Origin: Polytrichum commune
Taxonomy: Eukaryota; Streptophyta; Polytrichopsida; Polytrichales; Polytrichaceae
DNA: 64,000 nt
Direction of reading: 5' to 3'
Assembly: GCA_950295325.1 (NCBI GenBank)
Contig: OX485806.1
Coordinates: forward strand, 40,114,001-40,178,000
The translations under genes were made by a program, and so were the position numbers. Shown here piece after piece: positions 31,001-50,790 of this stretch (its first letter is position 1; the number at the start of each line of letters is the position of its first letter). The notes below the pieces were generated by a model, which saw only the letters and a list, made by a program, of their open reading frames with translations, was not told the origin of the DNA and made no database searches.

Positions 31001-33581
31001 AAAACATATTAACCACCAGCTAGACAGACAGACAGACAGAGATGCCCGCCCAGAAGGGTGGCCTTGGATACATATATATATATATATATATCAGAAATAT
31101 TTAGAAAAAAATTCATTTGTCTCTTAAAAAAATTAATTTAAAAAAGAAAAGAGAGTGAGAATCCAATGAATGCCCACCTAGAAGAGTGACCATGTCCTTT
31201 TCATTCAGGCCCTTGGCAGCGAAAGCAGATCTCGCGGCAGCCACGCTGATAGTGGGACCTGGGAGGTTCACTTCAGAGGCCCGAGAGATACGCCCATCTC
31301 TGCGGCCGCATGGCACTTGGTAGAATGGACCCCCAGCCTACAGCCAGCCACAACTCTAACAAGATTAGTTCACAATAACGCTTCACAACCTCAGACTGAC
31401 GACTTCCAATCAGTTCATGTCTTGATCACACTTCACCAGCTACAAAGAAAAATTATCGGTGGGCACTCATCTACTCTGCAAAATCCTACACACACTGCTC
31501 AACCACGTAGCAAGATTTATAAGCTATCACTACAGGAGGACTGGGACTGGCCCATGATTATTTGTTCTAGGATGTAGAGGAAATCAAGAGATTACCTTTT
31601 GATCAGCAGCAAAGACGACTTACAGGTCGACACTACTAAACTTTGGTCAATAATTCTCATGCGACCATCAACACACACTGCTCAACCTGATCTAAGCAAA
31701 TATTTAGAAGCTAATATCTTTGAAGAAGGGCTGGCAGGAGCGTTGAATGTTCAATGGTGTATCTAAGAGAATGAAGAAATTTTACAGGAAGTTGTGGTAG
31801 TGTACCAGACCAACAACGTCCCGGGTAGACAAGGCTATGATATCTGCACATGAAACTTTTCCAGGGCACAGCTTCTCCACAGCAGCTTTGGCAGAATCAA
31901 TGACGTCAAAACCATGGACTGTCAAGTTAGCCCCTGCATCCTTCTCGGCTTGGTTCCCTGGCTTGCTCTTTATCAACAAGGAAGCATCACAACCCTGCCA
32001 GACACACATAATTTATCACAGCAACACAAACTGATCACTAAATATTGTAAATCTCTCAGGCTGATGAGTACCCGGGATGACAACTCTTCCTTTTAGATCT
32101 TCTGTTTCTGAATGACTTCTAATACTTCTAATGCATCAGTGATTTTTTCTTTCACAAAGAGGATACACAGGCTTGAGAAGAAGGGCATTGAGAGGAATCC
32201 GATGATACGATTTGTCTCTGAATTAGAAAATGTTTGCACTTTCAAATGTCATTTTTAGAACTAATTAGAAGCATATTTCTAAAACCTGGGTCAACAACCA
32301 AATCCCCGAGGACCTGTTTAATTTCACTTATAAAAAAATTCATGAAATTTCTTTGAAGTTTTAAAATAGTCTTAGAAAAGCTTTTAATGCGAAAGTAGCT
32401 CCTAAATAATGCTTGTGCTTAGGATTGGTTTAGCATGTCCAAACCAAGGTCTAAAGACGGTGGCCCTGCGAGTATCACAGATTAATGCCACCCGGGGATG
32501 AGTGCAAGAGGGTGACTCATTTCCAAGAGCACAAATCTGCAAACCACGGAACTGTAGGGCCAGCTTACAGTTTGAGATGGCGTTATATCAATCATCCGCT
32601 AGTATAAGCAAATTGATCTCAGCTCTCAATGGGTACTCTTCAAAGTATGATGTCGGATCGTATGATGATGTGCTTCTTCAGAGACTATACTTATTTAGAA
32701 CTTGGGTTGGAGCTGCTTTGGTATTACAAGCAATTTTAAGACTGAATTTTTAAGGCACCATCTAATCTACATCTGTAAGCTGCAAATTATAGTCTCAGCT
32801 CTCTATATGTAAACATCAGAGTATGGTCCATATGATGATTCTATCCTCGTAAGCGATGATAGAAGTTTGAGAAATCCCTGCAGGAAAGTGAATCGGTATG
32901 ATTTGCAGTGTAAGCAACAAAATTCTCATTCATTACTTAGCCCAAAAATTAATCTTCGCAGTTTTCATAAACTAAGATGGGACTAAGATTCAAACAATAT
33001 GATAATATTAAGCAGACACACCCACTGTAAGAAGATTCACAGCTCCCAAAGGAAAATTTACCAAGACTGCTTCCACCTGAGCTATCAAATCTCTGAAGAA
33101 ATCCCAAGAAACGTAATATTGCAGTTAGACTTAGCAATCAGACTCTCATTACTTACTTTTCCGATTACAAATACTCACAAATTTCATAAATTCAGGTTAA
33201 TCACACGATAAATACCTCGAAATGATCATACTTCCTGGGTCATTGAAAAACAAGTTCTTTGAAAATTAGTCACAACACCATAACATGAAAAGTAGGCTCA
33301 TGCTTGTAGTCAATGCACTAATCTCATGCTGTGTATATGAGATGATTACTTACCCGAACGAAGCAGTCATGGAAATACATTCGAAGAATGCCGGGGACAA
33401 CGGACTTATCAGTGTTGAACTTGGATTTCACTGCGTTCGTGATGGCGGCTTCTGCACCCGGGCAAATTTTGTTGTAAAATCCTACTGTCAAACCTTCGGT
33501 GCTGCCAACCTGCAACAATGTGATGCAGACCAACAGTAGTAATAGTGCTACATCTCCTGAAGATGGCTTCACCCCTGCCAT
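28039..33581 (-). CDS. Secreted class III heme peroxidase
   Basis: Four exons on the minus strand: 33581-33354, 31994-31806, 31337-31178 and 28448-28039, giving 328 residues, normal for the family. It uses H2O2 to oxidise phenolics and other donors, typically in the cell wall or vacuole. The N-terminus is a signal peptide ([13 protein letters not shown], about residues 11-23), then mature protein from about [14 protein letters not shown]. Visible motifs are distal RMYFHDCFV with catalytic Arg and His, [23 protein letters not shown], proximal-His GAHTVG, and the calcium-site region FDKSYY. The eight conserved cysteines appear present, plus an extra one in VPCGRRDG. The three introns fall at the classical positions (after HDCFVR, after STRDVVGL, and within the LLG of LLGAHT), phases 0, 0 and 1. 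The gene appears intact; which paralogue and substrate cannot be told. Confidence 0.93.
29019..29400. mobile_element. MITE with CTACACTAAA ends in peroxidase intron 3
   Basis: Left end ctacactaaaaatgatattt and right end aatatcatatttagtgtag form an inverted repeat of about 24 bp with few mismatches. Internal phrases (acaaggaatgacaaataac, gggttaacatttagtgttggtgacac, gagcaagaca) are shared with the inner arms of the 15.7-16.35 kb foldback element and with fragments at 1.6 and 53.0 kb. No clear target duplication could be assigned. Confidence 0.65.
30360..31110. repeat. Simple repeats and MITE end in peroxidase intron 3
   Basis: A GA-rich run (about 30,380-30,394), a solitary MITE right end 'gtgacactacatacattatttggtgta' (about 30,578-30,605), a GACA repeat (about 31,022-31,040) and a TA repeat (about 31,072-31,092). 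No exon was found in this 2.7-kb intron. Confidence 0.5.
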
Positions 33582-33632
33582 TTTGATCAGCTCAACAGCC
33601 TAAACTCGAAGCTTTTTGATAGAAGCGCCACC

Positions 33633-34059: not shown

Positions 34060-35083
34060 TGCTTTAGATAATGGTGTTGGTGATGGTGTGTAATGGGGTT
34101 CCGAGGAAATCTGGAGAGGTAGGTTCTGGACAATCAGATCATGGCATGAGCAGATTAATACTGTGTATTCCAGTACTAATTATATGCCAGTGAGCTATCC
34201 TGGGTGTGAGTTATTATATGCTCTTCTGGAACCAGCAGGGCTGTGGTTGCGGAAAGGGAGCTTTTTCCCCTCATTACTAGCTTTTCCCTTACCTACTTTA
34301 TTTCAGAGACACCCAGGTTCAGGGGGTTGCCTCTTCACACAAGTTACAAACTTGAGCTCTAGCTCAAAGTGGAGGCCACACATGCCCAAACTCGGAGGTT
34401 TTCATAGAAAGCCGTCTTGGACTGGAGAGGTGAAATCGGATGCTCAGAAATTCGCGGTCACATTACATGTTGCAAATGAGCCAAAGTTTTCGTTAGTTTA
34501 ATGACATGTAACTTATGGGGCTATATAAGACTTCTTTAAAATGAGGATAACATAAAAGAAACTTAGTTGCCGGCACCGACTTCGCCTCCAAGTTGATTAC
34601 CTAACAAATACATCAGCATATTAGTTCTTATTTTTGTACAACCCAATGTTGCGTTCTTATTAGCTCTCAAAATGGTGGGTTGTGGTTTTTTCCCCATCAT
34701 CTTAGCTACTAGTCTAACAAGGAATCAACTTTTAAAATAATGACCAGATTTCAAAGACGGTGGTGTCGGTTGGGATAATTGCCAGTTTCCCATCATGTGT
34801 GTCCCCCCCCCCCCTTCTTCAACCTTGCAAGTTTGGTGGGCCGAGGTGTGAGACTTTAGGCCACTATGTATTTTTGACAAAGCTTTTGCAAGTTTTTGAC
34901 ATTTGACACGCAAAAACTTGCACCCCAAAAAAATGCACGTCATTTGACATGCACAATTTAAGAATTTGACATGTAGTGTGACCCCGGTTACGCAACTCCC
35001 ATATTATACGCATGGGGCATCGTACTTAAAACGGCTTAGAGGACGGCTTTTGTAAAAATTATATCAAATTATATCAAAAACAC
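34060..35083. other. Intergenic, no gene recognised
   Basis: Holds an open frame at 34163-34501 without domain features and a C homopolymer near 34,804-34,815. It separates the peroxidase promoter side from the mobile island. Confidence 0.5.
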
Positions 35084-35107
35084 TATATTCGGTATTTGGA
35101 GACTTTT
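35084..35107 (+). repeat. Left terminal-repeat-like sequence of element 1
   Basis: TATATTCG followed by GTATTTGGAGACTTT matches the inward-read ends of the 44.46-50.67 kb element (TATATTCGTTAATCG, GAGACTTT) at about 20 of 23 positions. The second half of the repeat (GGAAAGTCTC) is not preserved here. Confidence 0.5.
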
Positions 35108-35480
35108 TGTTGATTATGAGACTATATAAGGATGCACATTTCAAAATTGGACCAGTAATGACGACTAAAAATCCCATATGTATAATGGTATGCTACTATT
35201 ATTATACATAAAGGCATGGAAGTGAAAAAAAATGTGAGGCATACATGAAAATAGTTGCATATGAAATGACAACTCGTTATGAATGGAAGGGAAGATGCGA
35301 AGAATGAATGGAAGTTGAATGAATTAATTGGGATAGAAATACAATTATAATGGAAATACCATCAATGTCTTGAGTAACTTGGAATAGCATAGAAAGTAAG
35401 CACTTAAATATGTTCTACACCTTAGCCCATTTAGGGAGTCCGTCCCACTAGTACGCTTCTAGTCACACTAGTCCGACCCA

Positions 35481-36371
35481 CTATTTTTTTTTTGCGGCTA
35501 AGTCCTTTTTTTGGGCGGCCTCCATGGCTCTAAAAATCTCAGGCCCACGACTGTATCCTTGTGTGTTGCCTGGAAAGGAATATGTGTCGTTCTTGCATGT
35601 TTCAGGACGCGCTCCCGAATTGTACGAGGTGGTATTATAAGTAGAATACGAGGGCGTTTGCGAAAGGGAACGTCTTGCGCTTCTCCGGAGGGCCAGACAA
35701 CGATCGGACTCGGAAGATGCGGCCTTGAGGGCGTGCCTTGGCACTGACGAAGTCGAGGAGGGTTGGCCACCAAGCGAGCGGGGAGCCACCTGCCAAAAAA
35801 CGCCATAGGAAGATAATAATAAGAACGGAGTGGGGAAATGAGGAAGGGCGGTTTGGGATGGGCGCTCGTAAACCTCTTGGCACGCGCAGACAAAGAGGAA
35901 AGCAACGGTGAATATGGGTTTAGGGACAAAGAAGGGCACCTTGGATTTGGTGACATCGATCCCGGGGACGATGGGGGCGTCGAGGAGAGCATACGAATCC
36001 GGTTGAATTGCGGCACTGTTCAGTAATGTGGGGGAAACATGGCAAGGAGGGCCAACGACCGGGGATGGGTTTGCAGGAGGAGGAACGGGGACGACGGGGG
36101 AGGGGTCGCACCGGGTTGCTTCCAGGTGGAGACGTCGGCTCGGCCCACGACGAGCGACGGCGTCGTCCCTCGAGGGCGACACATGCCCCAAACGAACGAG
36201 CGTCCGCTTCTCCTTGGAGAGGGGGGAGGGCGACGGGGCGAATGCCCGGGGGACAACCCTGGGGGGCGGGCTGTTGACAACACCGTCGTCGACGTCCCGG
36301 GAGTAGTCCACGGCCGAGGCTGCATCCACCGCCGAGAAGTGGTAGAGTGAGGGGATCACGGAATACGTCAC
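35481..36371 (-). other. GC-rich block with open reading frames, coding status unclear
   Basis: A compact, GC-rich segment open in several frames on both strands, the longest being 296 codons on the minus strand. That product is rich in Pro, Ser and Arg and I recognise no domain. It lies 3' of the FCP1-like exon in the same orientation and might be a further exon, a separate small gene or non-coding GC-rich DNA. Multiple simultaneous open frames are expected in GC-rich sequence, so I do not call a gene. Confidence 0.3.
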
Positions 36372-36562
36372 GCCGCGGGAAGGGGAGCCTGGGGACGAGG
36401 GGGGACGGGAAAGGCCGTGGAGGACGGGGGCGTCACATATGGGGGCAAACTATGGGGAACAACAACAATAACAACAACAACACAGACAACAAAGACATCC
36501 AAAAACGGATGAAGCGTTAGATATGTGAACCAAATGATAACACGCACATACATGAAGATATT

Positions 36563-39500
36563 TCAAATGAGTTTATTAAATTTCGCGAGCCTCATGATGC
36601 TCTTGTATACATTATCGCGGGGGCTTAGTCCCGCATTGCCGATGGGGTTGGACCTAACAAAAAAGGGGATGCTACCGGCGTGGAGCACAAGCCTTCTAAG
36701 GTACGGCGCTAGCGTATCGACCAAAAATGCGTCCTTCCTATCTCCGGTCCACGTGTCGGGAAAGATGACGTTGCCCGGGGGGTTCAAAACGCTCTTGGCG
36801 GGGCTGTCGTCGACCAGGAGGGTGTTCTCCGGAGTAGGCCACCACCCGTGGGGGGTCCCCTGAAGCCGGGGGACGCCGCGCCAAAGTCTGGACCTTAGGA
36901 CCTTGAGGAACTGTTGCCCTCGGCCTCGGCCGCCGAACTTGGGAACCGGTAGACCCTTTTCGTCGAGTAGTTCATCGCAGTCCTCTTGCCCGAGGACAAG
37001 GCAAGGGCTCGGGAGATCACGGAATAGGAAGTCGACGATGGGTTCCGTGTTCTCCATGACCATTGAGCTCCACACAATGACGTGGGCGAACTCGACAACC
37101 TCGCGAAGGAAGTCCCGCAAGCCGGGACGGGCGCGGACAGCCTTGCGGTTTATTAGGGTGTCGAGCTCGCCGTCATAGTCCCTTTCGTCGGGGTGACGGA
37201 AGGGACGCGTGGGGACCCTCGGGATGTGTTCGGTGTGACACAACACCCCGTTGAGGTCAAACACGATGAACGGCTTGTTTCGGGTCTGAGGTCCACTCGT
37301 GGAGGGGTTGCGACCTATCTCCGGGGGGTCCTGTGATTAACAATTCGACTAGTTTAATGCTATGATCCAATAAAGAATTTAGCAAACATGAAGATGCAGT
37401 ATGGAAAAAGACGAAGGGCGAGAACAAGGGTACATTTGCGAACGATCGTTCGTGAAAGGCCAGCAGTGACCATGCGCACCATTCACGAACGTTCATTTGT
37501 GAATGAACCCTATAGTGCATTTACGAACGGGCGTTCGTGAAGGAGATGGTCGCGGGGTGGCATCCTTTTACGAGCGTCCGTTCGCGAACGAGGCAGAAAT
37601 GCACAACAGATTTGAACCCGCATGAACATACACAAAACAACCAATGCGAGACGACGCGATTCGATGCAAAAAAATGTTTCATTTATATGAATTCCGTGAA
37701 ATTTACAGTTTGTCTCAGATGATAATCTATCGTACAGGTTCCTAGGGCAACAAGATGCCGTGTCCTACAAAACTGGTCGACCTGAGGAAGCACGCAAAAA
37801 TGGGCTATCGGAGGTTTCGGATGCCGATGTATACAACGCGCCAAAACACAACGCATGTGGTTAGAGATGTTACGAACGCGCGTTCGTAAATGCATGCGGT
37901 AGTCTCAAAGATGAGTTACCTCGTCATCGGAGGGAGGGGCAGCGGCGCTGGATTGAGCGGCAGCTCCCTCCTCAGCGATTAACGAACGCGCGTTCGTCAC
38001 ATCCGCCGCCGCAGGTGCCTCAGTCTCCATTACGTCGTCAGCACGCGCCGCCTGAGACGTCTGGGTCTGCTGTATGTCGTCCTCCTCGCCACCCAGGTCG
38101 AGAGTCTCCATGTGCACGTCCCCAATGCATGCGGGGGGATGTCGGTCTTCCGCAGGGCTGTCCTCGACGTCCATCCTCTGGACGCCTGCGGTGTCACTCG
38201 GGCTCCCCTGCGTGTCCTCCACAATGACCAAGTCAGTGTGTCGCGCAGTATCATCGCCCCTTGTCCTATCTAGTAAACTGGGGACGACGGTGAAAGGTGC
38301 CGTGTCCGTCTGTGAAGGCAGTCCTACCCTTGGTGGGGGTGGGGTGAGGACTGTTGGACCTGAAGATTCACGAACGTGCGTTCGTAAATCCTCGTCCTCA
38401 CGGATAGCCGCCGAGATTGCGTCGTGTATGTTGGCGGTGTCCGTGGGCATTGTAGGGGGTGGAGGAGTCCCCACCGGCGTTGGGTGGGGCGCTGGCTGGT
38501 AGGAATGCCCTCCCGGGAAAGGACCGTGCATGGGGTATCCCGCAGGGAATGGGAATGCTGCCTGAGGGGCCACTGCAAAGTTCTGCAGCCTGGTCAGCAT
38601 CGCCAGTATGGCGTCCGTCTTCTCGTTGGAGGACTTCAGCTCCTCCTCAATTTTTCTCATTTTCCGGGCATTCTCCTCTGCAGCCGCAGCCATGTCTTCC
38701 TTCATCTTCTGCTCGAGCTTTGCGTTAAGCTCGGCGACGGAAAGGGCCTCCTCCTTGACCCTCTTGTTCTTGTCGAACTCCACCCCAAGCTCGACCATAA
38801 TGTCAATGTCCCCCTCGTCCTCGTCGGAGACCTCAATGATCGCCCCCTCGGGCAACTCCACGTACGGGGTCTTCTTCATCCTCCGTCGCGTGTTGCGGAA
38901 CAGGTCCAACGTGGGACGGGAGCGTTGGTCGAGGACATCGAGGGTCTCCATTTTCGGGACCGCCAGCCTTTGCTTGGGGGACACTGACGTCGAACAACCT
39001 CCTGGCGTGCCGAAGGGCTCCGCGCCTGAGGTAAGCGCGGGGAGGACATCCTGGGTGGCACCCGCCGAGGATCCAGTACATCCAGCCGGGGTCCCTTGGT
39101 ATTCTGAAGGCTCCCCCGATGGGGCCAACAACCGGAGAGGAGTGACATCCAAAGCCTGGAGGATGGCATCGACGTTGACGGAGGGGCCAGGCTCGTCGTC
39201 GTCTGTTTCCATGGGCGGCATGCCTTCCTCGGCCGGCATGTTGAAGTCCGTTCTGGGCACGGACATGTCAGCTAGGTCCATCGTCGACGCTTTTGTCCTG
39301 TGGAACTTGTAATCCTCCTCGTCGACGGCGTCAATATATGTGTTCACGCACAGCCCCAGCATCTGAGATAAGAAGGCAAAGATTCAGTCATTTACGAACG
39401 CGCGTTCGTAAACATGAAGGCTTTGAGCGAGGAAATAATAAAAAACAATTCACAAAACAATCATAAGTATCGGCTGCCCATGGTAAATTGTTTGGAGCAT

Positions 39501-42294
39501 GCAGTGTTTACGAACGAGCGTTCGTAAAAAGTGGTGTGAGATGGCTTACCATGGCCGCGTACATAAATTTGCTGCCTCCAAATACGTTGTAGACAGTCTC
39601 GCCAATCATTGCCAAACCCTGCAATATGGAGACGTAGAACTCCATCCTCAGCTCCAGCGCCGGGAAGACAGTGTACAGAGTCTCCTGGAAGAGATCCTTT
39701 GGAGGTGGGTGAGGGATGCTGTATATCTTCTTGAATGTGTTGATCGCCTTTATGGGTGCTCGCCCATTCCTAAGCGCATTGTACGTCAAGAAGATGAGGC
39801 TCACCGCTCCCACCTGCCTGTTGCCTCTGGCCTCGTTTACGGCAACAATTCCCTCCGTCTTCGCTGGCACGTATGTTCTGTGGAAGATGTTGTACTCGAA
39901 CTTGATCTTGTTCTCATACAAATCGATGACGACGGATTGCTTCTCCTGCTCCACAATCCACAGCCATACGTGCGGCTCCCTCATGGTCGGAGATTTGTGC
40001 TCCATGAATCTCGCCATGAAAGGGTTGTAAAAAGGCTCCCCCTTCGCGCCCTGTCGCGAGGCACCGGGTATCCCTCTGAAGTCGATGACCGCGAAGGGAC
40101 AACCCCTTCGATCCTCCCTGACCTCGGACCTGCTGAAGGTGCCATCCCACTTGGAAAACGTGGTCCTCTCCAGCCCCGTGGTCACCACACAAAATCTTGC
40201 CACGCCCTCGAAGGTGGCGTTCCTCTTCCTCTCCAAGAAGGAGATGTACCGTTGAAGCTCTTCAGGTTCCGTTTCTGTTTTTTTTGCTCTTTTGTTTCCC
40301 TTGAGCTTCAGGACGGCGACGTGCTCCTTCACCAGGCTGCGCATTGAGGCACCGTTGATATTGTACAGCGCCTTGAACTCCTTCCATTTCGCCCAGTTGA
40401 TATCTTCGTCGGCCTGGAAAAGGTGCATCTCAGGCAATAGGCCGCTAATCTCCCGCATCGCAGCGGTCTTCAGCTTCCTGTGGTCGCACCACTCTTTGAT
40501 CGAGTACGTGCCGGGCTTGTGCTTTGGTCTCTTCAAAAATATCTTGGGATAAGGGATGGTCCTTCCGACGGTGTTCCCAAGAACGTGAACCGCACATCGC
40601 TGCAACTCTGATTCAGTCAGTCCTTGCAGGGCCCTAAAAAATTCCCGCAGTAGAGGCGGAGCCTCTCCGCTCTTCTCTTGAGCGTACTTCTCTTCTGTGT
40701 CTGGGTTCACCAGATCGCCCGAGCTGTGAGCGTCGAAGAACTGGGTCCACAACTCCCAGGTGTCTCTGTTGCAGCAAATCAGACGGAGCTCACCTTTGAG
40801 CTCCAGAACTGATTTGGTGCTTGTGGACTTCATGTCGATGGAGGAGAATTTGTCCACCATCGCATCACAGAACGCCTGCAACATACATACGAGGACGTCA
40901 GTGTTCAATACTAAATACGAACGCGCGTTCGTAAGTTGGAAAATTTAGAAATTGTTTAATGCAACATATGCTTTACGAACGCTCGTTCGTAAACTCACCT
41001 TCCACTGTGGAGATTGCGTCTTGGCGTTCTCCCTCTCTTTTGGCGGGCATCCGTGCGCGACCCACACGTCTCTGGCCGCCACTATATTCGCCGCCCAGGA
41101 GGCCTCGAATGCCTTGATCTTGTTTCCGGAATTCAAAAATGTCGATATTTTGCGGAGCTTGTCCCAGTCGTCAGACCAAACCAAAAACGCCTTCCAGTAG
41201 CGCAGGTCCGCCTTGAGCTCGTGCTGGAAGTTATCATCCTTTAGGATGATCTGTGACGCCTCTAGACTGTGTTGTCCATCGATTATCCAAAACTCTCCAT
41301 TCTGGATTCTTGGCCAATCCTTCTCAGTGGGGCGTGACAAAAAACCCTTGGGCATCACGCAGACGGTCTGCCTATCCCACTTCACGTTGTTCATGAGGTT
41401 ATTAATCTGCCACTTCACCCCTCCGCTTTCACGAGACCTCACCACCCACTTGTTAGGAGATTTCTCGCACTTGAAACAATCCACGTTGAAAGTGAAGTGG
41501 CGTCCCATAGGCCAGCAATCCTTGGAGTAGTTGTTGAAGTCTCGAAGGATTTTTGTCGCTTTGGCAGCGTCTGGGTTTTCTCCCTTCTTCAAAGGGGTTG
41601 GCATCACTGGAGGAGAACTAACCTCAGCGCCTTCCGTCAATCCGGACTTCTCCATCTCGTCCCTCGACCTCTTGGATGGAGTGGATTGTCTGCTGGGCCC
41701 TTCTGTCAACCTGCTCCCCGAAGGCACAGGCCGCGGAGCACTTCTCGATCCTCCTGCCCCCGAAGCAGCTGGTTTTTTCGGACTTTTCTTTTTTTTATTT
41801 GCCTCCGCGGCAACACTGTTGTACTTCGAAACATTCAAGGTCAGGGCAGTCAACTTCCTCGCCGTCCAGTGTTGACTCAGGGCATATTTGGTGAAGAGAG
41901 CATCCAGATTGAAATGTTTCGCATCGGATGCGACATTATTGCATGCATAAGCATAAGAGAATGGGTGCAATAGGTAGTTTAAGAGGAGGTTCACATGGTC
42001 TTTTTTATTTTTCATATCCAGAATAACAAAGTCTCCTTGTGCCTCTGCGGATTCTATCTCCCAATTCTTTGTCTGCACCCATTGGTCTGGTTGGTCAGCC
42101 CTTGTCTGCAGCTCATAAGTGAATCGCAATGCAAACAACCCTTCCTCGGTCTTCGTGGGGATGGCCGTCCACTCAGCCATGAATTCTTCTTTTGGGACAT
42201 AGTTGTCGTTCCCATTGGTATCCGAGACGCCCTCTGGAAGGCGCTCCACTGGCACTGCGAACAAGTCGATGGCGTTTCTGTTAGCTTTAGCCAT
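36563..42294 (-). CDS. Large mobile-island protein: ParB/DGQHR-like domain plus FCP1-like HAD domain
   Basis: Four minus-strand exons, 42294-40999, 40875-39550, 39362-37920 and 37330-36563, join through GT-AG introns all in phase 0 to about 1,610 residues. Exon 1 starts with ATG directly after a cag acceptor, so an upstream leader exon is likely. Exon 1 (432 aa) has a basic KKKKSPKKP stretch near 167-175 and a ParB/DGQHR-like core with FWIIDGQHSLEAS at about 335-347, followed by a LRKISTFLNSGNK segment that recalls DGQHR proteins. Exon 2 (442 aa) is not recognised. Exon 3 (481 aa) is largely disordered with one Lys/Glu/Ala-rich coiled coil. Exon 4 (255 aa) resembles FCP1/NIF HAD phosphatases: FDLNGVL at about 1378-1384, VIVWSSM, then LLVDDS. 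The second catalytic-motif acid is Asn, so activity is uncertain. Joining exons 3 and 4 rests on matching phase; exon 4 could be a separate gene. Confidence 0.6.
37434..37585. repeat. Degenerate palindrome cluster near the FCP1-like exon acceptor
   Basis: Four relatives of the island palindrome lie in intron 3: cores near 37439-37452 (centre AT), 37482-37508 (broken), 37521-37541 (good, centre GG) and 37571-37584 (broken). They are more decayed than the copies elsewhere in the island. Confidence 0.6.
37870..37891. repeat. Island palindrome, intron 3 donor side
   Basis: Arm ttacgaacg, centre CG and arm cgttcgtaaa, 28 nt inside the donor of the intron that follows exon 3 (exon end 37920). Confidence 0.85.
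37979..38000. repeat. Island palindrome inside coding exon 3
   Basis: The core acgaacg, CG, cgttcgt lies in the open frame and is translated on the minus strand as VTNARSLI. It is one of only two copies seen in coding sequence. Confidence 0.8.
38367..38388. repeat. Second island palindrome inside coding exon 3
   Basis: Arm ttcacgaacg, centre TG, arm cgttcgtaaa, translated on the minus strand as DLRTHVRES without interrupting the frame. Confidence 0.8.
39391..39528. repeat. Palindrome pair bracketing intron 2
   Basis: Two full copies, 39391-39412 (centre CG) and 39507-39528 (centre AG), lie in the 187-nt intron 39363-39549. One is 28 nt from the acceptor, the other 21 nt from the donor. Confidence 0.9.
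40914..40993. repeat. Palindrome pair bracketing intron 1
   Basis: Copies at 40914-40935 (centre CG) and 40972-40993 (centre CT) lie in the 123-nt intron 40876-40998. The donor-side copy begins 5 nt after the exon end; the acceptor-side copy is 38 nt from the acceptor. Confidence 0.9.
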
Positions 42295-42325
42295 CTGCAT
42301 CACACAAGAGCAAATCAGAATTGCT

Positions 42326-42347
42326 TTTACGAACGTTCGTTCGTAAA
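42326..42347. repeat. Island palindrome upstream of exon 1
   Basis: Centre TT, both arms perfect. It is 31 nt upstream of the cag acceptor that precedes the exon 1 ATG, the same relation to a splice site as the copies in introns 1 and 2. Confidence 0.9.
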
Positions 42348-42458
42348 CAACACCGTGCCATGCATATTATTTTCATAGTGTGGTTTTTGGAAATACGAAG
42401 TTTTGAATGTTTTATGCATTTCAGGGTGTTTCTAATGCATTCACATTGGTTCACATCT

Positions 42459-42665
42459 TTCACGAACGCGCGTTCGTAATATGAGATTCCTGTTTATTAG
42501 TATTTTGTACATAACTATACGAACGCGCGTTCGTAAAGTCATGTGATATTGTGGAAACTATTGAGTTAAATTTAGTGTTGTGATTGGATTTAAGTACTTA
42601 TATGAATTACAGCATGGATATATCCCTCCATTTTGGATTTAGAGTTTCGAACGCACGTTCGTAAA
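42459..42665. repeat. Three island palindromes in the upstream region
   Basis: Copies at 42459-42480 (centre CG), 42516-42537 (centre CG) and 42645-42665 (centre CA, left arm with a small deletion). They lie in the region upstream of the minus-strand gene. Confidence 0.85.
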
Positions 42666-42690
42666 CGTAGTCCTTGGGTTCCAAAGAATC

Positions 42691-42812
42691 TTTACGAACG
42701 CGCGTTCGTGAAATGGTATATATTTTGCGCGGCCTATGCATTTACGAACGCGCGTTCGTAAATGGGTGTATATTGTGCGCGGTAGAGGTATTTACGAACG
42801 CTCGTTCGTAAA
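42691..42812. repeat. 50-bp-period palindrome array
   Basis: Palindromes at 42691, 42741 and 42791 are spaced at exactly 50 bp. The spacers resemble each other (atatattttgcgcggcctatgca, gtatattgtgcgcggtagagg), so this is a short tandem array with one palindrome per unit. Centres are CG, CG and CT. Confidence 0.85.
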
Positions 42813-43954
42813 TGAGCCTGTTGTTTGTTTTTATATATATAATTCATAATAACAATATAGTGTCCGTACATATACGGATTTGTATATATACGAATTCGTA
42901 TACATACGTATGGCAAGGTCTTGCTTGCTGTGTCTCAACAAAGCTTGCACTTGTGCCTGCAAGTGTTCGTCAGAAAGGTGAGATTGAAGAAAAACAATAC
43001 AATCAAAACATATAGACTTGGAATGTGACAGAGAATTCAGAACGAGGATCCGAACTTGACTTCCAAAACACATGCCATTCAATAATGAACAAATATAGAC
43101 TGTGAAGGATTTGAGAAGGGAAGGAATATTGTGCTTACTCTGAAATTTTACACACCCAAAAGCTGCTTGCTCCCTTGTTGAAAACCCCAGGAAACCCCAC
43201 AAAAGCAAGGTGATTTGAAAGTCAAATGCACCACTGCACCACTGAAATTGCCTTCACACTAGTTGTTGCATGCTATGTACAAACCCTAACTAAGACTCTG
43301 ATGTATATGCAACTTCAAATGCAGTATCTCTCAAGCTGCTACTCTAAAACTTGCAATTATCAAGCTTATAGCTTGAGTATCCTAATCTTAGCCTTCCAAC
43401 TCTCAAGCTTTAAACTCTATAAACTTTCAACTCTCCAACTTTCAACTCTTCTAACTCGAGTTCTCTATTCTTGAGCTGCAACTCTCAAGGGACTGTCAAT
43501 AACTCTCAACACTTGCGCCTACAAAAGAAGTGCACCACACAAAACTAAAAAATGCAAGAGCTTCGCCTCTAAACTCTAAACCAACGCGGCGCTCCTCCTC
43601 TCTCTGCTCCAAATGAGAATGAGGAAGGAGAGGAGGGGGCGCGGGGAGGTAGCCCGCGCCTCTAGGGTTTTCCCTCGGGCTGCCACATGGCCGCTTCCCA
43701 TTGGGGAGGGAAGGGATGGGTCGGGCTAGGAAGATGAGGGGATGGGATGGGGAGATAGCATGGGGTGTGGGATGGGTGGATGGGGGGGATGGGTTGGAAT
43801 TCATTGGGGTTTAGTAATTCAATGTAATCAAAGCACATAAATATATTCAATGTGACTTAATAAAGTGATTTGCATGGGGGGCACTAACCGATTTGACATA
43901 AATCTATGTCATCACAATAAGAAATGCAACTATATATTACACCATTTGCACTTA
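42813..43954. other. Upstream part of element 1, no gene recognised
   Basis: AT-rich DNA with an imperfect inverted stretch around 42,865-42,910 (atacggatttgtatatatacgaattcg) and a compact purine/pyrimidine-skewed block 43,560-43,800. Minus-strand ORFs here have no domain features. A leader exon and promoter of the minus-strand gene should lie here. Confidence 0.35.
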
Positions 43955-43991
43955 GTTTGAGACTTTCCCAACTCTCTAATTAACGAAAATA
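43955..43991 (-). repeat. Right terminal-repeat-like sequence of element 1
   Basis: TTTGAGACTTTCCC...AATTAACGAAAATA resembles the right end of the transposase element (TTTGAGACTTTCCA...GATTAACGAATATA) at about 30 of 37 positions, in the same orientation. Confidence 0.55.
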
Positions 43992-44460
43992 ATCTAAGTT
44001 GGATGTATAAGCAATAAAGGCACGTTAATTTCAAGCTTTTTAATATGTATATGCCTCCATCACATAAACATAAGGAGTCCAGTACAAAACATGCATTTTA
44101 AATGCTACATCCCCTTCATCTACTTTGGATTCATTGTAAACATCTTCTAGATAAGGAGTATGAATTCAATTTCCACATTGCACATCATGTACTAGGGATT
44201 CGATGAAAACCCTACCCCCAACGATGTGTATTAATATGGTGTTTTCAAATATATAGTGTTCTCATAATTGAAATATCTTTCAAGTTTTTAAATGGTTCCT
44301 CAAATAATTTAATATAAGATCCATAAAGGTCCCGATTTAAGATTGGTGGGAACGGTTTAGGATTTTCTTACAAGAGGTGCGGGAAAATTCAATTTCAAAT
44401 ACTAGGCTTTCAATTCAGTTTATTATGTGTGAACTTGAACTACTGCATTAAATTTATTAT
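43992..44460. other. 470-bp spacer between the two candidate elements
   Basis: AT-rich DNA between a right-type end at 43991 and a left-type end at 44461. No ORF and no palindrome was seen. Confidence 0.5.
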
Positions 44461-44500
44461 TATATTTGTTAATCCGAGACTTTGGAAAGTCTCAAAATAA
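44461..44500 (+). repeat. Left terminal inverted repeat
   Basis: Reads inward TATATTTGTTAATCC, then GAGACTTTGGAAAGTCTC, then AAAATAA. The central 18 bases are a palindrome with arms GAGACTTT and AAAGTCTC. The mate at 50631-50670 differs at only two positions. Confidence 0.85.
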
Positions 44501-44834
44501 ATGCAAATGATTTAATATGTGGTTCAAATTCTTATTCGGATGAGATGTATTTGTGCCAAATTGGTTAGTGTTGCCCATGCAAATCGCTTTATTGTGTCAC
44601 ATTGAATGTATTCTTGTGTTTTACTTGTTCTTTATTTGAATACCATGTTCTGAAATAGTATCCAAAATCATGAAAATGTCCCCAATTACAGAATATGGTG
44701 ATCGTTGAAAGTTTGGCTCGCATCAAATGTAAGCTACAAATAAATTAAGTTAGTGCAATATGGATTTATGAGTAGTGAATATAGTTTGTATGTAAACCCT
44801 GTTATATGAACTACTGGACATGCACATCCCTCAC

Positions 44835-44863
44835 AAACCCTAAACCCTAAACCCTAAACCCCT
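44835..44863. repeat. Interstitial plant-type telomeric repeat
   Basis: About four consecutive CCCTAAA units, the plant telomere repeat on its C-rich strand, lie about 375 bp inside the left terminal repeat. Confidence 0.85.
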
Positions 44864-45189
44864 AGTTTTTTTTACCATCCGCACTATATGGGGGAATGTT
44901 GTGATCCAACCTAATAGTGTTGAGTGCATTTTAATTACACAATGCATAAGTGGGACTCCATATAGGTATGGTTTCAATTCATATCATTACACTATCTTAT
45001 GCACCATTCCAAATTAATTCAACATTTCCACACAATGTTGAATCAATTCACTATTTGCAAACCTGGAGTTGCATTTGAATTAAGATATAAAGTATATCTA
45101 GGCATGGTTTGAATTCATCTCCTTAATCTACCTTAGTAGCTTGCATGAATTCACCAGATTTTTTATTGGTGTTCATGCACTTGGTGAGT

Positions 45190-45540
45190 ATTTGCCGCAA
45201 TAATGTACATAAATGTAATGTAGATACATGTAATGTATATATATGTAAAGTATAGATATGTAAAGTATAGATATATGTAAGAAACATATATATAGATATA
45301 TAGATATATATTCACACATATATATAGGTATATAGATATATATTCACACATATATATAGGTATATAGATATATATTCACATATATATATAGGTATATATA
45401 TAGGTATATAGATATATATTCACATATATAGATATATATAGATATATATTTACATATATACAAAGATATATATATATATATGTAAATATAAGTAAATATA
45501 TACATCGATATGTATATAGGAATATACATTTTATTTTTTG
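45190..45540. repeat. TA-rich minisatellite block
   Basis: Successive related units such as 'taggtatatagatatatattcacacatata' repeat with periods of roughly 20-45 bp, preceded by 'atgtaaagtatagat' units. This low-complexity DNA produces spurious Tyr/Ile-rich ORFs on the minus strand. Confidence 0.8.
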
Positions 45541-45889
45541 GTTCGGGAAACCTTGGTAACACCTAAGGTGTGGAACGGATGAACATATTATCAATGCGTG
45601 CATGCGATACATATTCAATACAGAAAGTTATTTATGTCCCGCATGAATAGAATGGCATATTGTTAGGTTAAAGTAGGCGGCGGGAATCCGCTTTTCAAAG
45701 AGAATCCAAGGGATTTTGAACCACGGTAGAGGAGTACTTAAAGCTCTCCCCCCCATTGCAGAGCTCTTTTTTGCGGGAGACACCAAGTGTGCGCTCCAGA
45801 CACCCGACGGAGGGCGCTCGAGCCAGTTTCCTGTGCGTGAACCGTACACTCATAGGTGGCAGACAACCTTATCCCGCAAATACCGGGGG

Positions 45890-46398
45890 TTTACGAACGC
45901 GCGTTCGTAAACCTGCAGTGCGCGCATGTGTTTGTGGATGAGATATATCGAGGTTGGTTGGATGTTTACGAACGTGCGTTCGTAAATACCGCCTTGGCAT
46001 ATATGTACATCCATGAATGTATAGACCCATATACGATTATGCATAGGCACAGACAATATGAAAGTCATATACGAACGAACGTTCGTAAATGTAGATTTTG
46101 GGCATCCGCCGAACATTGGGAATGTGCAAGAGTTTACGAACGCGCGTTCGTAAACCTTCAGTGCGCGCATGTGTTTGTGGATGAGATATATCGAGGTTGG
46201 TTGGATGTTTACGAACGTGCGTTCGTAAATACCGCCTTGGCGTATATTTTACATCCATAAATGTATAGACTCAGATACGATTATGCATAGGCACAAACAA
46301 TATGAAAGTCATATACGAACGAGCGTTCGTAAATGTACATTTTGAGCATCCGAAGAACATTGGGAATGTGCAAGAGTTTACGAACGCGCGTTCGTAAA
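45890..46398. repeat. Tandem ~243-bp units each carrying three island palindromes
   Basis: Unit A runs 45890-46132, unit B 46133-46376, and a third unit starts with a palindrome at 46377. Each full unit has palindromes with centres CG, then TG, then AA (unit A) or AG (unit B), at 45890, 45965, 46068 and 46133, 46208, 46312. Shared spacer phrases include gatgagatatatcgaggttg and gaaagtcatat. The frames that read YERAFVN are translations of the palindrome, not genes. Confidence 0.9.
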
Positions 46399-46448
46399 TA
46401 TTGAATGCGCGTAAACGGTGTATGGTACATACTGAAATGACATTAGAG

Positions 46449-47031
46449 TTTACGAACGTGCGTTCGTAAGTGACACCGCTTATTTTCAGAATCCACATAC
46501 TCATGGATATAAGGGATATGAAGATGTAAATACAATACGATAGTAATTTGCAAACAGAAGGTCGAAAATATCAATGATTTCAGCAGATATACATAAGATG
46601 AGCGAGAGTTTACGAACGTGCGTTCGTGATTTCCACCTGGGAGTATGTCGATGCATACATCACGCCTCCCTGGGCACGCACACAAATATATATGTATTTA
46701 CAACAAAATATTAGACATAAATACGAACGTGCGTTCGAATTCATTCAGGGAATGTATCTGGACATTGACTGCGAGATGTGGGAAAATGCTCCATTTGCTC
46801 CACATACACATAGTATGGGCGAGGGATGTGTATTTGGGGCACATGGAATAATACATTCATATGCGTCAATGACTCTCAGAAGTTATGTGTAGGCATATAA
46901 CAGGTATCCCTGCACAATTGAAACGGTCCATGTTTTAGTTGACATACAGAATGACGGGGAACATTCGAACGCCCGTTCGTATATATGCCCAACTCAAACA
47001 GAAGCGTGTTTGCATGCAGACGATCGTTCTG
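46449..47031. promoter_or_regulatory. Palindromes in the region leading to the transposase gene
   Basis: Copies at 46449-46470 (TG), 46609-46630 (TG), 46720-46741 (TG, right arm decayed) and 46962-46983 (CC, left arm decayed), plus a weak relative at about 47018-47031. They become less perfect toward the gene. Their position between the tandem units and the start codon suggests a promoter or leader function, which is inference. Confidence 0.6.
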
Positions 47032-47147
47032 TTATTCCCACTGTGACTTGTGCTCTATTGTGACTTAGGTTTACTAAAATCTTGTTGTATTTGTGATTGA
47101 CTTATATATGTTGTGATTCCATGTTCGCGTCATTAGGTGGGTTTGCG

Positions 47148-50100
47148 ATGGATATGGGAGATAGTGCATTTGAGTTGTCGACGAATGCATCATCGTCGGA
47201 TACGGAATGTCGCCTCTCTTCGCCTTCGGAGGATTATATTCGAGGGGCTAACGTCCTGGGTGTGTCTGGGGATACATCCTCCCATGAATCTTTGGAAGGG
47301 CAGGAACATTCCCAACATTATGGGGATGATAACGACCACATTCCATTGTGTGCCGGTTTCGGGAGGGAGCAGTGGGTGGGCCTTGATGTTGTTCTTCTGA
47401 ACGAGCATGGTGTCCCTGTGGCAAATGGCATTTGTAGAAACTCCGATCCCCTTGAATGTATTGATGCCAACCCCCTTGGATTGGATGATGTTGGCGTTTG
47501 CATCTTGAATTCTTTACTTCCGTTGGAAGTCCCGTTGACTTGGAGATTTTCCTTGCGGCGATGGCCCCTGCGTCGAGTTCTCCATGAAGAAGTAAGCTTG
47601 TGGGATCATGGGCGACGGCACAAGCAAACGCAGTCAGCTTTGTTGGCCGCAAGCCGTCCTCGCAAAGGTCTGCGCAAATACGATTCTAGTCGTGTGTCTG
47701 GCATACAAAAAGAACGTAGACGGGATTCCATACTTGGAGAGGACTCTATCCGTCAAGTATCCACAAAGGACTGTTGTGCGAAGAAATGTTGTCAATTCTT
47801 TCCGCGTGAAAAAATTAGGTCCCTTCGGCAAGAGATGTGGCTTGCGGATTTTCGTATGAGGTCGGCAAAAAAACTCGAGGTCCACAGAAATTTTCATGTT
47901 GACAGCCATGGCAATAAGGTGGTTACCCTTGAGAATGTGGAAGTGTGTTGCACAGCATGGTATTCCATCCATGCAGTCTCCAAGGCTGATTTTTATAGGT
48001 TTAGGAAGTATTCTTTGTTGGGACGCCGTTCTCGATTTCATGGCAACTCGGGCACCAAGAAACCTAGAGAGGCTACACTCCAAGCCTCCGCGACACTCTC
48101 CACCATCATAGTCCCGTTGGCCGATGCAATGCCCCACAAGACGAGGACATTGTCCTCCGGGGAGAAAGTTGTCCAAATGGTGTTGCCCACGGGCACAAAA
48201 TGGAAGAACATCTTAACGGATATAAACGAAGTGGGTCGCAAAGCTGGGTGTGGGCCCATTTCTTTGTCCAAGTTGAGTGTAATTAAAAACCAACAGTTTG
48301 CGGAGTACATTTTGAAGAGACCCGGGGACAAGTTTGCCAGGTGTACGACGTGTGAAAAGTACAAAGGTCTTCGAGACGCCCATCCTATAGGCACCGAGTC
48401 CCATACAAGACACCAAAGAAAATACATTGAGCATGTCAACAACCAGGAGGCACACCGTCAAGATTACTACAAGAATCGTGCACTATCCATAATGAGGCCT
48501 GCGGAGGTCCTAACTGTCATCCATGATAAAATGGACCATGCCAAAACCGCATGCCCTTGTTATGCACGCAAAATTAAAGCCACGGATGGTCTCTTCAAGT
48601 TGCCCGTAGCTGTCACAGGTTCGTATGGAATCACAAATGTGTTTGAAAGGATTTCCAATATTTTTGGGTTTGTTTGTCATATGTCAAACTTCATCCGTCT
48701 GTTTAGTGGTTATACCATATTTTTGTTGTTCATCCATCGTTTTTTTTTCTCAGGTATGATCGCCCACGGCCATGGGGACGTTAAATATGCCCATTATGGT
48801 TTGGATTTTTACCCTGGCGATGCCAACCACACGGTTGGTTCATTTGCAAAACTCTTGCGCGATCTTGAGAAGCCGCCGATTCACTCTTCCCGTGCGCTTT
48901 TTGATGGTTGTGGAACGACACCCCTTTACGAGGCAGTGCTTCAGGGGAAGGAGGTTTGTATGTCGGCATTGCCGGAACCACGTGGAGAACCCATTTGTGC
49001 AAAACCATTGCCTCCAACTCTCCATGTTCAACTTGATAATTGTGCTAAAGACAATAAATGTCGATATGTGTTTTGTTTTTGGTCATTGCTTGTGGCAAAA
49101 GGCATATTCAAAGAGGTGTTTGTGTCTTTCTTGATGGTGGGGCACACACACGATGACATTGATGCGTCATTTGGACGTTGGAGCATGAAGTTGCATGAAG
49201 AGGATTTTCCCACCATACCGCTTCTTATGAAATCATACATGGATTTGGACAATGTGCCCGTAATCCCGCACATGATTGAGGAAGTACCAAATTTCAAGGC
49301 CTTCATCAAGCCATACATGCTGAAGGGAGACGACCGTTTGGTGGGACACACGAAAGCACAACAATTCCGCTTCTATATGAGGGATGATGGTGTCCCTGCT
49401 ATGCAGTTTAAGCTTTTGTGCACATCTCCTAATTGGTGTCCGGAGGATGGGATACTCGTGTGGCGTCAGAACAAGGATGGAAAATGTTTGCTCCCGGATG
49501 GGGATCCAAAGCCTTGTAAACCCGATCCCATGAAGAATGGGCCGGAAATCATCAAAGGTATATCCGGATTCATTGAATATTGGAAAGAGTTGTGTGAGGA
49601 AGACATCACCAAACGTGTTAGGAATACTTATGAACCGTTGATCGCGTATTGGGATCGCATTCGCTCGGCCTTGATGACACTTGGTGGTGACACACGTATA
49701 ACTTTGACACAAGGATTTTGGCCACAAAGTCGTTTGACGGTTGTGGAGTCCGACACCATGTTCTTTGACAATGGAGAGGTCCGTGAAGAGTTCGAAATGG
49801 ACGAGCATTACGTTGGTCCTGCGCGCAATCGGCCGGCACCGTCGTTTCGTGTGGGTGTTGATTGCCATGAAGGGTATATGGTCCTCGTACGAGCAGGAGA
49901 TGAGGAGCACCCCAAGCCAATTTGGTTGGTGAAAGCATTGTCTTCACCCAATTTTATCCGAACTAGCCCCAACTTTCATCAAATTGAAGTGGAATATTGC
50001 CGTCCTAGCACCAAAGACCAGAACGTTCTCCGGACCTATTTAGGTTGGGACACCAAAAAGAATTTCAAGTGGACAGTGGACTCAGCATATGGACCGGTTT

Positions 50101-50279
50101 GGATAAACACGGATACCATACTTTGTGCTTGGAAACCGCGTAAGGGCTCTAAATCGGAAACAATGACCATCCCCCAAAAACATATAGATTTTGCCAAAGA
50201 CAACCTGGCACGTATTGCAGCTGTGGAAAATGAAGCCGAGAATGGATATGAAGCGGAATATGGAGACGGGGAAACATAA
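47148..50279 (+). CDS. DUF7869-type putative transposase (RNase H-like)
   Basis: The open frame runs from 47097, but I prefer the ATG at 47148 (MDMGDSAFELS) because a possible acceptor (cattag) lies at 47131-47136. A 135-nt GT-AG intron, 48619-48753, is likely: it is in frame but encodes a hydrophobic, T-rich stretch, and its removal joins VAVTG to MIAHGHGD, giving about 998 aa. Features are a Cys cluster (CCAKKCCQFF), a CxxC (CTTC) and CPC, then a probable DDE-type core: IHDKMDHAK, LDNCAKDNKCRYVF and GHTHDDIDASFGR, which are the conserved blocks of the DUF7869 family, often found in transposon-like genes. The C-terminal third may be a DNA- or chromatin-binding part. It lies within the terminal repeats and is divergent from the ParB-like gene. 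The frame is uninterrupted, so it may be recent or active. The transposase role is inferred. Confidence 0.75.
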   Translation: MDMGDSAFELSTNASSSDTECRLSSPSEDYIRGANVLGVSGDTSSHESLEGQEHSQHYGDDNDHIPLCAGFGREQWVGLDVVLLNEHGVPVANGICRNSDPLECIDANPLGLDDVGVCILNSLLPLEVPLTWRFSLRRWPLRRVLHEEVSLWDHGRRHKQTQSALLAASRPRKGLRKYDSSRVSGIQKERRRDSILGEDSIRQVSTKDCCAKKCCQFFPREKIRSLRQEMWLADFRMRSAKKLEVHRNFHVDSHGNKVVTLENVEVCCTAWYSIHAVSKADFYRFRKYSLLGRRSRFHGNSGTKKPREATLQASATLSTIIVPLADAMPHKTRTLSSGEKVVQMVLPTGTKWKNILTDINEVGRKAGCGPISLSKLSVIKNQQFAEYILKRPGDKFARCTTCEKYKGLRDAHPIGTESHTRHQRKYIEHVNNQEAHRQDYYKNRALSIMRPAEVLTVIHDKMDHAKTACPCYARKIKATDGLFKLPVAVTGSYGITNVFERISNIFGFVCHMSNFIRLFSGYTIFLLFIHRFFFSGMIAHGHGDVKYAHYGLDFYPGDANHTVGSFAKLLRDLEKPPIHSSRALFDGCGTTPLYEAVLQGKEVCMSALPEPRGEPICAKPLPPTLHVQLDNCAKDNKCRYVFCFWSLLVAKGIFKEVFVSFLMVGHTHDDIDASFGRWSMKLHEEDFPTIPLLMKSYMDLDNVPVIPHMIEEVPNFKAFIKPYMLKGDDRLVGHTKAQQFRFYMRDDGVPAMQFKLLCTSPNWCPEDGILVWRQNKDGKCLLPDGDPKPCKPDPMKNGPEIIKGISGFIEYWKELCEEDITKRVRNTYEPLIAYWDRIRSALMTLGGDTRITLTQGFWPQSRLTVVESDTMFFDNGEVREEFEMDEHYVGPARNRPAPSFRVGVDCHEGYMVLVRAGDEEHPKPIWLVKALSSPNFIRTSPNFHQIEVEYCRPSTKDQNVLRTYLGWDTKKNFKWTVDSAYGPVWINTDTILCAWKPRKGSKSETMTIPQKHIDFAKDNLARIAAVENEAENGYEAEYGDGET

Positions 50280-50630
50280 CATAAGTTGGATTTAATGGCT
50301 CAATGTAGGGGGACTTTATAGACTTGGTATTATTGCAATTATTATATAATAAATTTATAATATTCAAATTTATAAATACGTTTGGGATGTGCCATACAAT
50401 CCCATAAGACCCTTATATATGGGATGCACACCTTAAACTTTATAATGACATAATACTATTTGATTTTGGGATTGGATTGTTTTTTCCACGTGTAGTTCAT
50501 GTTTATGTTATGATATGAAGACTTACTATTTTTAGTAATGTGAATATTCTTCGCAGGCGAATTTGTAAACCGTCATGTTCCCAAAGTTCCATATGTTCAC
50601 AATATTGGCATCCCAAACTATGGGCGTATT

Positions 50631-50670
50631 TTATTTTGAGACTTTCCAAAGTCTCCGATTAACGAATATA
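50631..50670 (-). repeat. Right terminal inverted repeat
   Basis: TTATTTT, GAGACTTTCCAAAGTCTC, CGATTAACGAATATA; the inverse of 44461-44500 with two mismatches. It lies about 350 bp after the transposase stop codon. Confidence 0.85.
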
Positions 50671-50691
50671 GTGTTCAAATCAAAATGACCA

Positions 50692-50790
50692 AAAAGTTGG
50701 GTGAAGACCAAATTAAATAAAATGAGATGAAAAAAAAGTTGGGTAAAGACCAAATTAAATAAAATGAGATGAAAAAAAGTTGGGTTGCAT
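50692..50790. repeat. Tandem ~49-bp duplication outside the right terminal repeat
   Basis: The phrase 'agttgggtgaagaccaaatt' and the following 'aaataaaatgagatgaaaaa' occur twice in direct succession just beyond the element end, so they belong to flanking DNA or a post-insertion duplication. Confidence 0.75.

Follow-up and report, generated by a model that had tools for sequence, protein, structure and literature searches.

A DNA transposon of Polytrichum commune with a fused DGQH/FCP1-like gene and family-specific palindromes, possibly acting in self-recognition

The stretch of DNA analysed here, which we call the window, comprises 64,000 nucleotides of Polytrichum commune (GenBank assembly GCA_950295325.1, contig OX485806.1, positions 40,114,001 to 40,178,000 of the forward strand), and positions below count from its first letter. 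It lies on contig C4 of the genome that we searched (407.8 Mb in 64 contigs). The window contains a DNA transposon of 15,597 bp (15.6 kb, 35079-50675) with two divergent genes: a candidate transposase bearing a DUF7869 domain, and a fused gene of four exons, which is unusual in having a bacterial-looking DGQH motif in front and an FCP1-like phosphatase-type domain at its end. A short palindromic motif is concentrated and conserved in the non-coding parts of the same element. The features of the locus are the following.

35075..35078: target site duplication CAAA, left
35079..35103, plus strand: left terminal inverted repeat AACACTATATTCGGTATTTGGAGAC, the same end being found in 20 of 30 exon-4 loci
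36563..37330, minus strand: exon 4 of the fused gene, NIF/FCP1-like domain, 255 aa plus stop, with DLNGVL at 37241-37258
37331..37919, minus strand: intron 3, with palindromes
37438..46980: region within which the window's 27 palindromes all lie
37920..39362, minus strand: exon 3, charged low-complexity linker (judged by eye), two exact palindromes
39363..39549, minus strand: intron 2, two exact palindromes
39550..40875, minus strand: exon 2, conserved region, no family match over cut-off
40876..40998, minus strand: intron 1, two exact palindromes
40999..42294, minus strand: exon 1, 432 aa, with residues 235-432 almost unchanged among four copies
41254..41292, minus strand: FWIIDGQHSLEAS motif within exon 1
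47121..50279, plus strand: divergent gene, PF25273 (DUF7869), candidate transposase, Pfam 1e-39
50651..50675, minus strand: right terminal inverted repeat AACACTATATTCGTTAATCGGAGAC (minus-strand reading)
50676..50679: target site duplication CAAA, right

The four minus-strand exons join in phase 0 into 1,610 aa plus a stop, as the preliminary description of this DNA had proposed. All intron borders are GT-AG, the length of each exon is divisible by 3, and the motifs named in that description are where it placed them: FWIIDGQHSLEAS in exon 1, and FDLNGVL, VIVWSSM and LLVDDS in exon 4. Since the exon-4 frame offers no methionine ahead of the FCP1 core, an upstream exon is needed; exon 3 adjoins or precedes exon 4 in 28 of 30 exon-4 loci. 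Splice borders are kept in three diverged copies (L129, L130 and L131), with the L130 exon-3 donor (GAG/GTAACT) at the expected position. Such conservation of exons and splice borders can be taken as the best substitute for transcripts in this analysis and, together with the element ends described below, it supports the claim of a single fused gene with an FCP1-like C-terminus on a mobile element. An additional 5′ exon, probably untranslated, is likely to precede exon 1, because the exon-1 ATG sits directly behind an AG acceptor (TGCAG/ATG in 5/5 copies; AG/ATGGC in 24 of the 25 loci where our script detected the motif, out of 30 scanned).

Copies of the gene are spread over the genome. Of 1,079 first-look candidates for the exon-1 protein, at least 97 proved to be matches, with identities of 83-100%; 67 of the 97 listed are free of internal stops. 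The exon-4 protein has at least 149 matches (from 1,270 candidates), 141 of the 149 without a stop. At least 66 of the 97 exon-1 matches are paired with a same-strand exon-4 match 3.8-6.8 kb downstream, mostly at 4.4-5.0 kb. Codons for IDGQH occur at 592 genome sites on both strands versus 18 in a reversed control. Such codons are found on the same strand, 3.6-8.2 kb upstream, for 26 of the 39 NIF matches listed on contig C1 (host genes included), with a chance rate of about 0.5% each, and the DGQH/FCP1 domain pair is therefore stable. The search for the same pair elsewhere, which the preliminary description had suggested, thus finds it recurring across the genome, including in a second, diverged family.

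The gene is under purifying selection. Relative to the window copy, the three diverged subfamilies represented by L129, L130 and L131 show 84-86% identity in exon 1 and 66-72% in exon 3; exon 4 is 92-94% identical in L129 and L130, and in L131 it is 91% identical over residues 1-202, after which the frame shifts. Between subfamilies, exon 1 has a ratio of non-synonymous to synonymous divergence (dN/dS) of 0.02-0.06 in the pairs that allow its calculation, the others being saturated at synonymous sites; the ranges are 0.07-0.13 in exon 2, 0.23-0.27 in exon 3 and 0.07-0.11 in exon 4. Against L132, a copy of the window's own subfamily, the values are 0.14, 0.25 and 0.81 for exons 1, 2 and 3. As a separate observation, the synonymous divergence of L129 and L130 from the window is 0.43-0.45 in exon 4 and above 1 or saturated in exons 1 and 2, and the exon-4 end was perhaps exchanged or gene-converted between these subfamilies and that of the window. 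Module swapping was also considered for copies listed with exon 4 and the DUF7869 gene and without exon 1; exon 1 of one such copy, L283, turned out to be split, at 99% identity, so that no swap took place there.

The ends of the element are terminal inverted repeats of 25 bp, equal at 22 of the 25 positions, flanked by a 4-bp target duplication. The left end recurs in 20/30 exon-4 loci with 19 different flanks, and the remaining loci may not extend that far. A second complete copy, L129 joined to L284, has the same terminal repeats and the duplication CACT. The DUF7869 gene is divergent from exon 1, at a distance of 4.5-5.6 kb where both are paired, and nine of its ten best genome matches have exon 1 or exon 4 in this arrangement when compared against 21 of the 97 exon-1 and 6 of the 149 exon-4 places. 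CACTA/EnSpm elements have CACTA termini and a 3-bp duplication. Both complete copies here end in AACACTA with a 4-bp duplication, and in the divergent gene Pfam recognises only DUF7869, with no CACTA/EnSpm transposase domain. The Zisupton (KDZ) superfamily makes an 8-bp target duplication (PMC12730594), again different from 4 bp, and neither superfamily fits.

An outer pair of CCCGG inverted repeats with 8-bp AGTGTGAC duplications (34975/51098) was tried as element ends and ruled out; we place the ends at 35079 and 50675 because the second complete copy and many left ends agree on them. These outer repeats are part of another, separate element, about 514 bp long (34975-35078 plus 50680-51105), with 26-bp inverted repeats CCCGG(T/G)TA(C/T)GCAACTCCC... 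and the 8-bp duplication exact, into which the 15.6-kb transposon was inserted. An open reading frame (ORF) at 35481-36449 was rejected as a gene, its frame being broken in many copies. Inside the element, 43830-44622 holds a 164-nt inverted repeat (80% complementary, arms 465 nt apart), within which 43952-43991 is a copy related to the right terminal repeat, perhaps from a nested relative. Positions 1-3762 of L132 are another element copy (terminal repeat AACACTATATTCG, DUF7869 gene) inserted into an exon 4 of the same family. In the joined stretch of L284 and L129, the DUF7869 gene (14315-17419) lies in three overlapping pieces in different frames, reflecting introns or frameshifts, and two further DUF7869 copies (C4:4663726 and C4:4934131) have 7 and 8 stops, although the paired exon 1 is open. 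Beside the element, two minus-strand ORFs (28039-28482 and 33324-33599) resemble, by eye, exons of a class III peroxidase.

The FCP1-like domain claimed for exon 4 is well founded, with a PF03031 (NIF) match of 8e-16 and 58.6 bits versus a gathering cut-off of 21.8; TIGR02251 matches at 2.1e-9, below its cut-off, and there are weak matches to solved CTD small phosphatases. Among 30 exon-4 loci, D-L-N-G and VWSSM are kept in all 30 and (V/I)DDS in 27. The second Asp of DxDx(T/V) is essential in FCP1/SCP enzymes. Here it is Asn in 30/30 exon-4 loci, as well as in L365 of the second family, and full phosphatase activity is therefore doubtful, yet purifying selection on the domain is strong; a phospho-binding role or an altered activity would fit this pattern. 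The domain match is thus shared with SCP/Dullard/FCP1-type phosphatases (PF03031, TIGR02251), from which exon 4 differs in having D-x-N for D-x-D and in being fused to a transposon gene. In the open PMC literature we found no earlier transposon use of an FCP1-like domain and no paper on DUF7869; among DGQHR papers of the same collection, going by titles and the beginnings of abstracts, none concerns such an element.

The other half of the proposed domain pair, a ParB/DGQHR fold in exon 1, is unsupported: the likeness is limited to the DGQH motif, in which Ser replaces Arg. Exon 1 keeps IIDGQHS, and 25 of 30 exon-1 loci have DGQHS in place of the pentapeptide DGQHR, our script detecting no motif in the other 5. 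TIGR03187 of NCBIfam reaches 10 bits (E 0.5 over 10 residues; cut-off 58.85), Pfam gives no match on exon 1, PF14072 included, and the weak Pfam matches of exons 2 and 3 are all below their cut-offs. Profile-profile searches used four reference sets, three of phage DGQHR proteins (19, 2 and 21) and one of 72 distinct DndB relatives. Matches spanned 13-22 columns around the motif, the best having a probability of 77.5 and E 1.9e-5 over 19 columns, and no resemblance to DndB or ParB was found beyond the motif. These matches do not support homology to ParB/DndB, the best scores being matched by 3, 8, 4 and 10 of 40 motif-kept shuffles for the four sets in that order. Among the reference proteins checked, 4 of 8 had a DndB, ParB or GmrSD match in Pfam (2 over cut-off) and 5 of 5 a DGQHR or ParB match in NCBIfam (3 weak). 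A single-sequence AlphaFold model has a pLDDT of 36.8, unusable for judging a ParB-like fold; DGQHR and GmrS domains are predicted to share a ParB/sulfiredoxin fold (PMC4619093).

In common with DndB/DGQHR proteins (PF14072, TIGR03187), then, the gene has the (I/V)IDGQH motif, and DndB for its part binds palindromes in its own promoter (PMC4507180). The differences are DGQHS instead of DGQHR, the lack of detected similarity outside the motif, and the setting, since DndB is a bacterial regulator in phosphorothioation operons, unlike this plant transposon gene. Pattern scans of IMG/VR found no viral relatives of the gene products; 98 viral contigs contain the palindrome, one site each.

The short palindromes reported around the gene are real, with 27 in the window at up to one mismatch of the 16-bp core versus 0.00 expected, 23 of them exact. 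The full first-family palindrome, TTTACGAACG-NN-CGTTCGTAAA (22 bp; TTTACGAACGNNCGTTCGTAAA), consists of two 10-bp half-sites and a 2-bp spacer. Of the 27, the divergent promoter region (42295-47096) holds 18, the introns 7, with at least two in each of the three, and exon 3 holds 2, in different reading phases, so that 25/27 are non-coding. In 11 of 12 copy pairs, the palindromes in introns 1 and 2 are 94-100% identical versus 50-82% outside them. The two bases at the centre vary freely. At the seven core positions of each arm, 110 distinct 22-mers show 82 one-sided changes, 1 compensatory change and no other doubles, with 2.8 doubles expected from independence; on the whole, these uncompensated changes are what a protein site in double-stranded DNA would show, and they speak against an RNA hairpin.

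Across the genome, the 16-bp core has 5,602 exact sites versus 4 in the reversed control. Thirteen of the 30 strict 22-mers listed on C1 are within 10 kb of a listed exon-1 match; with a wider cut, chosen second (12 kb, exon-4 and DUF7869 matches added), 23 of the 30 are near a listed match, where chance gives 1.6%. A 244-bp tandem duplication at 45889-46398 carries palindromes in each unit, and the palindrome may multiply through tandem repeats, as described for VANDAL elements. The earlier analogy with bacterial ParB/parS is right in that conserved palindromes lie near the gene. The likeness to parS itself is weaker than the comparison with VANDAL elements and their VANC proteins, because the sites are spread over introns and promoter region and differ between families.

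This difference comes from a second family, found through at least 35 PF03031 matches with frames of 281 or 283 aa, of which L365 and L366, one of each, were partly read. Exon 4 of L365 is 44.6% identical to that of the window over 231 aa and keeps LDLNGVL, VWSSM and VDDS. The start of its exon 3 (MLGL) is 42% identical over 33 aa, and a phase-0 junction can be placed by eye at GAG/GTAATA ... CACAG/GGATCG. The second-family palindrome, GTTTGGGTCG-NN-CGACCCAAAC (GTTTGGGTCGNNCGACCCAAAC), has the same build as the first, and L365 and L366 contain three each (shuffle means 0.015 and 0.0), two in exon 3 and one about 20 nt into intron 3; in the first family, too, exon 3 holds two sites and another lies close to where intron 3 begins. 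Neither L365 nor L366 contains a further inverted repeat of this size, L365 has no exact first-family palindrome, and the window has none of the second-family palindrome. Motif and gene thus differ together between the window family and the two partly read copies. The second family also seems to carry a DGQH exon, because 4 of its 6 matches listed on C1 have IDGQH codons 4.7-5.6 kb upstream. Its 20-mer occurs at 9,731 genome sites versus 0 in the control, often in tandem arrays in the places listed; C1:616089-617338 and similar places hold regular arrays with periods such as 78, 64 and 32 bp.

The explanation that we hold most likely, with a confidence that stays somewhat below even, is self-recognition by a plant DNA transposon, in which the 1,610-aa protein binds the palindromes and keeps the expression of its own element active. 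We favour it because the two families differ in both motif and gene, yet have their sites in the same regions of that gene, and the family-specific palindromes suggest that each transposon family marks and recognises its own DNA. The element would carry the DUF7869 gene as candidate transposase and, divergent from it, the gene of the 1,610-aa product, which, probably in dimeric form or as part of a complex, would bind the two-fold symmetric sites of the shared promoter region, all three introns and exon 3. Binding would mark the element's own copies and maintain their transcription against host silencing. The most likely role of the FCP1-like domain would be that of a phospho-binding module or a weakened phosphatase, working at chromatin or at RNA polymerase II. 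The ratio of observed to expected CpG (CpG o/e) is 0.88 in both complete copies, with palindromes masked, versus 0.37-0.44 outside, which is what weak long-term methylation would leave.

Motif concentration and conservation in non-coding parts, and change of the motif with the gene between families, are what is known from VANDAL elements. There, the motifs bound by VANC proteins lie in introns and elsewhere in non-coding DNA, and motif and protein co-evolve through tandem repeats (PMC5735166). Both systems are multi-gene plant DNA transposons whose introns, intergenic stretches and other non-coding parts are rich in a short motif, which differs between families and spreads through tandem repeats (PMC5735166). 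This likeness is one of motif pattern and element build. In contrast to the 22-bp two-fold palindromes described here, the VANC21 motif has nine bases, is non-palindromic and is arrayed in one orientation; the DGQH and FCP1-like parts, the DUF7869 neighbour and the 4-bp target duplication are further differences. Fungal TET/JBP transposons (KDZ, hAT, IS3EU and others) also carry an accessory gene thought to be anti-silencing (PMC12730594), but there it encodes an enzyme acting on methylcytosine, and the accessible text does not mention a palindromic address.

Several observations weigh against self-recognition. On the protein side, a ParB/DGQHR fold is unsupported beyond the motif by the profile searches and the low-pLDDT model, Pfam recognises no DNA-binding domain in the gene, and the D-x-N signature raises the possibility that exon 4 is inactive as a phosphatase; the palindromes could instead be bound by the DUF7869 protein or a host factor. 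On the side of the sites, one intron-2 pair shows 62% identity in palindromes versus 51% outside, the contrast in intron 3 is smaller (78-86% versus 60-75%), the three outermost arm positions have 19 double changes, 9 of them complementary, versus 14.1 expected, and the exon-3 sites of the two families share the exon but do not fall on aligned residues. The CpG ratio is also lower in the promoter region (0.67-0.70) than in the whole element, and its high overall value may reflect young copies, coding constraint or higher GC.

Among the alternatives, the palindromes might be transposition sites, the role of a TnpA-like protein being to bring the element together for excision and not to counter silencing, which we regard as rather unlikely. 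The second protein of maize Spm binds reiterated 12-bp motifs, and here too a second gene lies beside the candidate transposase. However, the palindromes are internal, in introns and promoter region, and at up to one mismatch none lies in the left 2.3 kb or the right 3.7 kb of the element (a single two-mismatch match is at 36192).

It is unlikely, in our view, that the DGQH protein is an autoregulator or repressor that holds down its own expression by binding the promoter palindromes, in the manner of bacterial DndB. The DGQHR protein DndB of Salmonella does bind 5′-TACGN10CGTA-3′ palindromes in its own promoter (PMC4507180), and the same arms and spacing occur in 17 of the 23 exact window palindromes. 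We treat this match as probable chance (about 1 in 256 by our estimate), because TACGN10CGTA is found in 0/27 phage DGQHR loci and the second-family palindrome lacks it; moreover, a simple promoter switch needs no sites in introns or exon 3. Of the same low probability is the possibility that the sites serve a host transcription factor, or are satellite-like repeats of a selfish kind, with another role for the gene. The frequent tandem arrays in the places listed agree with it, but one shared host factor does not predict two families with different motifs in the same gene parts, and within introns the first motif is better conserved than the sequence around it. Action of the palindromes in RNA, as hairpins or through intron pairing that helps splicing, is very improbable: each intron holds at least two sites, a 9-bp stem closed by a GNNC loop could form at every site, and the outermost arm positions show the slight excess of doubles mentioned above, nearly half of them (9/19) complementary, but the core arms change almost always on one side (82 cases to 1) and 18/27 sites are intergenic.

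Returning to self-recognition, a broader proposal is possible, and we put it forward with distinct reservation: the gene may represent an undescribed class of plant transposon-encoded regulators of transcription or the epigenome, in which a DGQH palindrome reader brings its FCP1-like domain to chromatin or RNA polymerase II, every family having evolved its own 22-bp address in the same gene parts. Were this true, there would be thousands of addressed sites per genome. How transposons recognise themselves and escape silencing is an open question, for which VANC in Arabidopsis is the plant case that we found described. The elements of P. commune would add a further system, apparently independent, in which near-perfect palindromes number in the thousands, two families have diverged and carry different palindromes, and a single candidate protein is conserved. 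With addresses this clear, specificity can be tested directly by swapping proteins and sites. If confirmed, the system would provide new sequence-specific DNA-binding modules.

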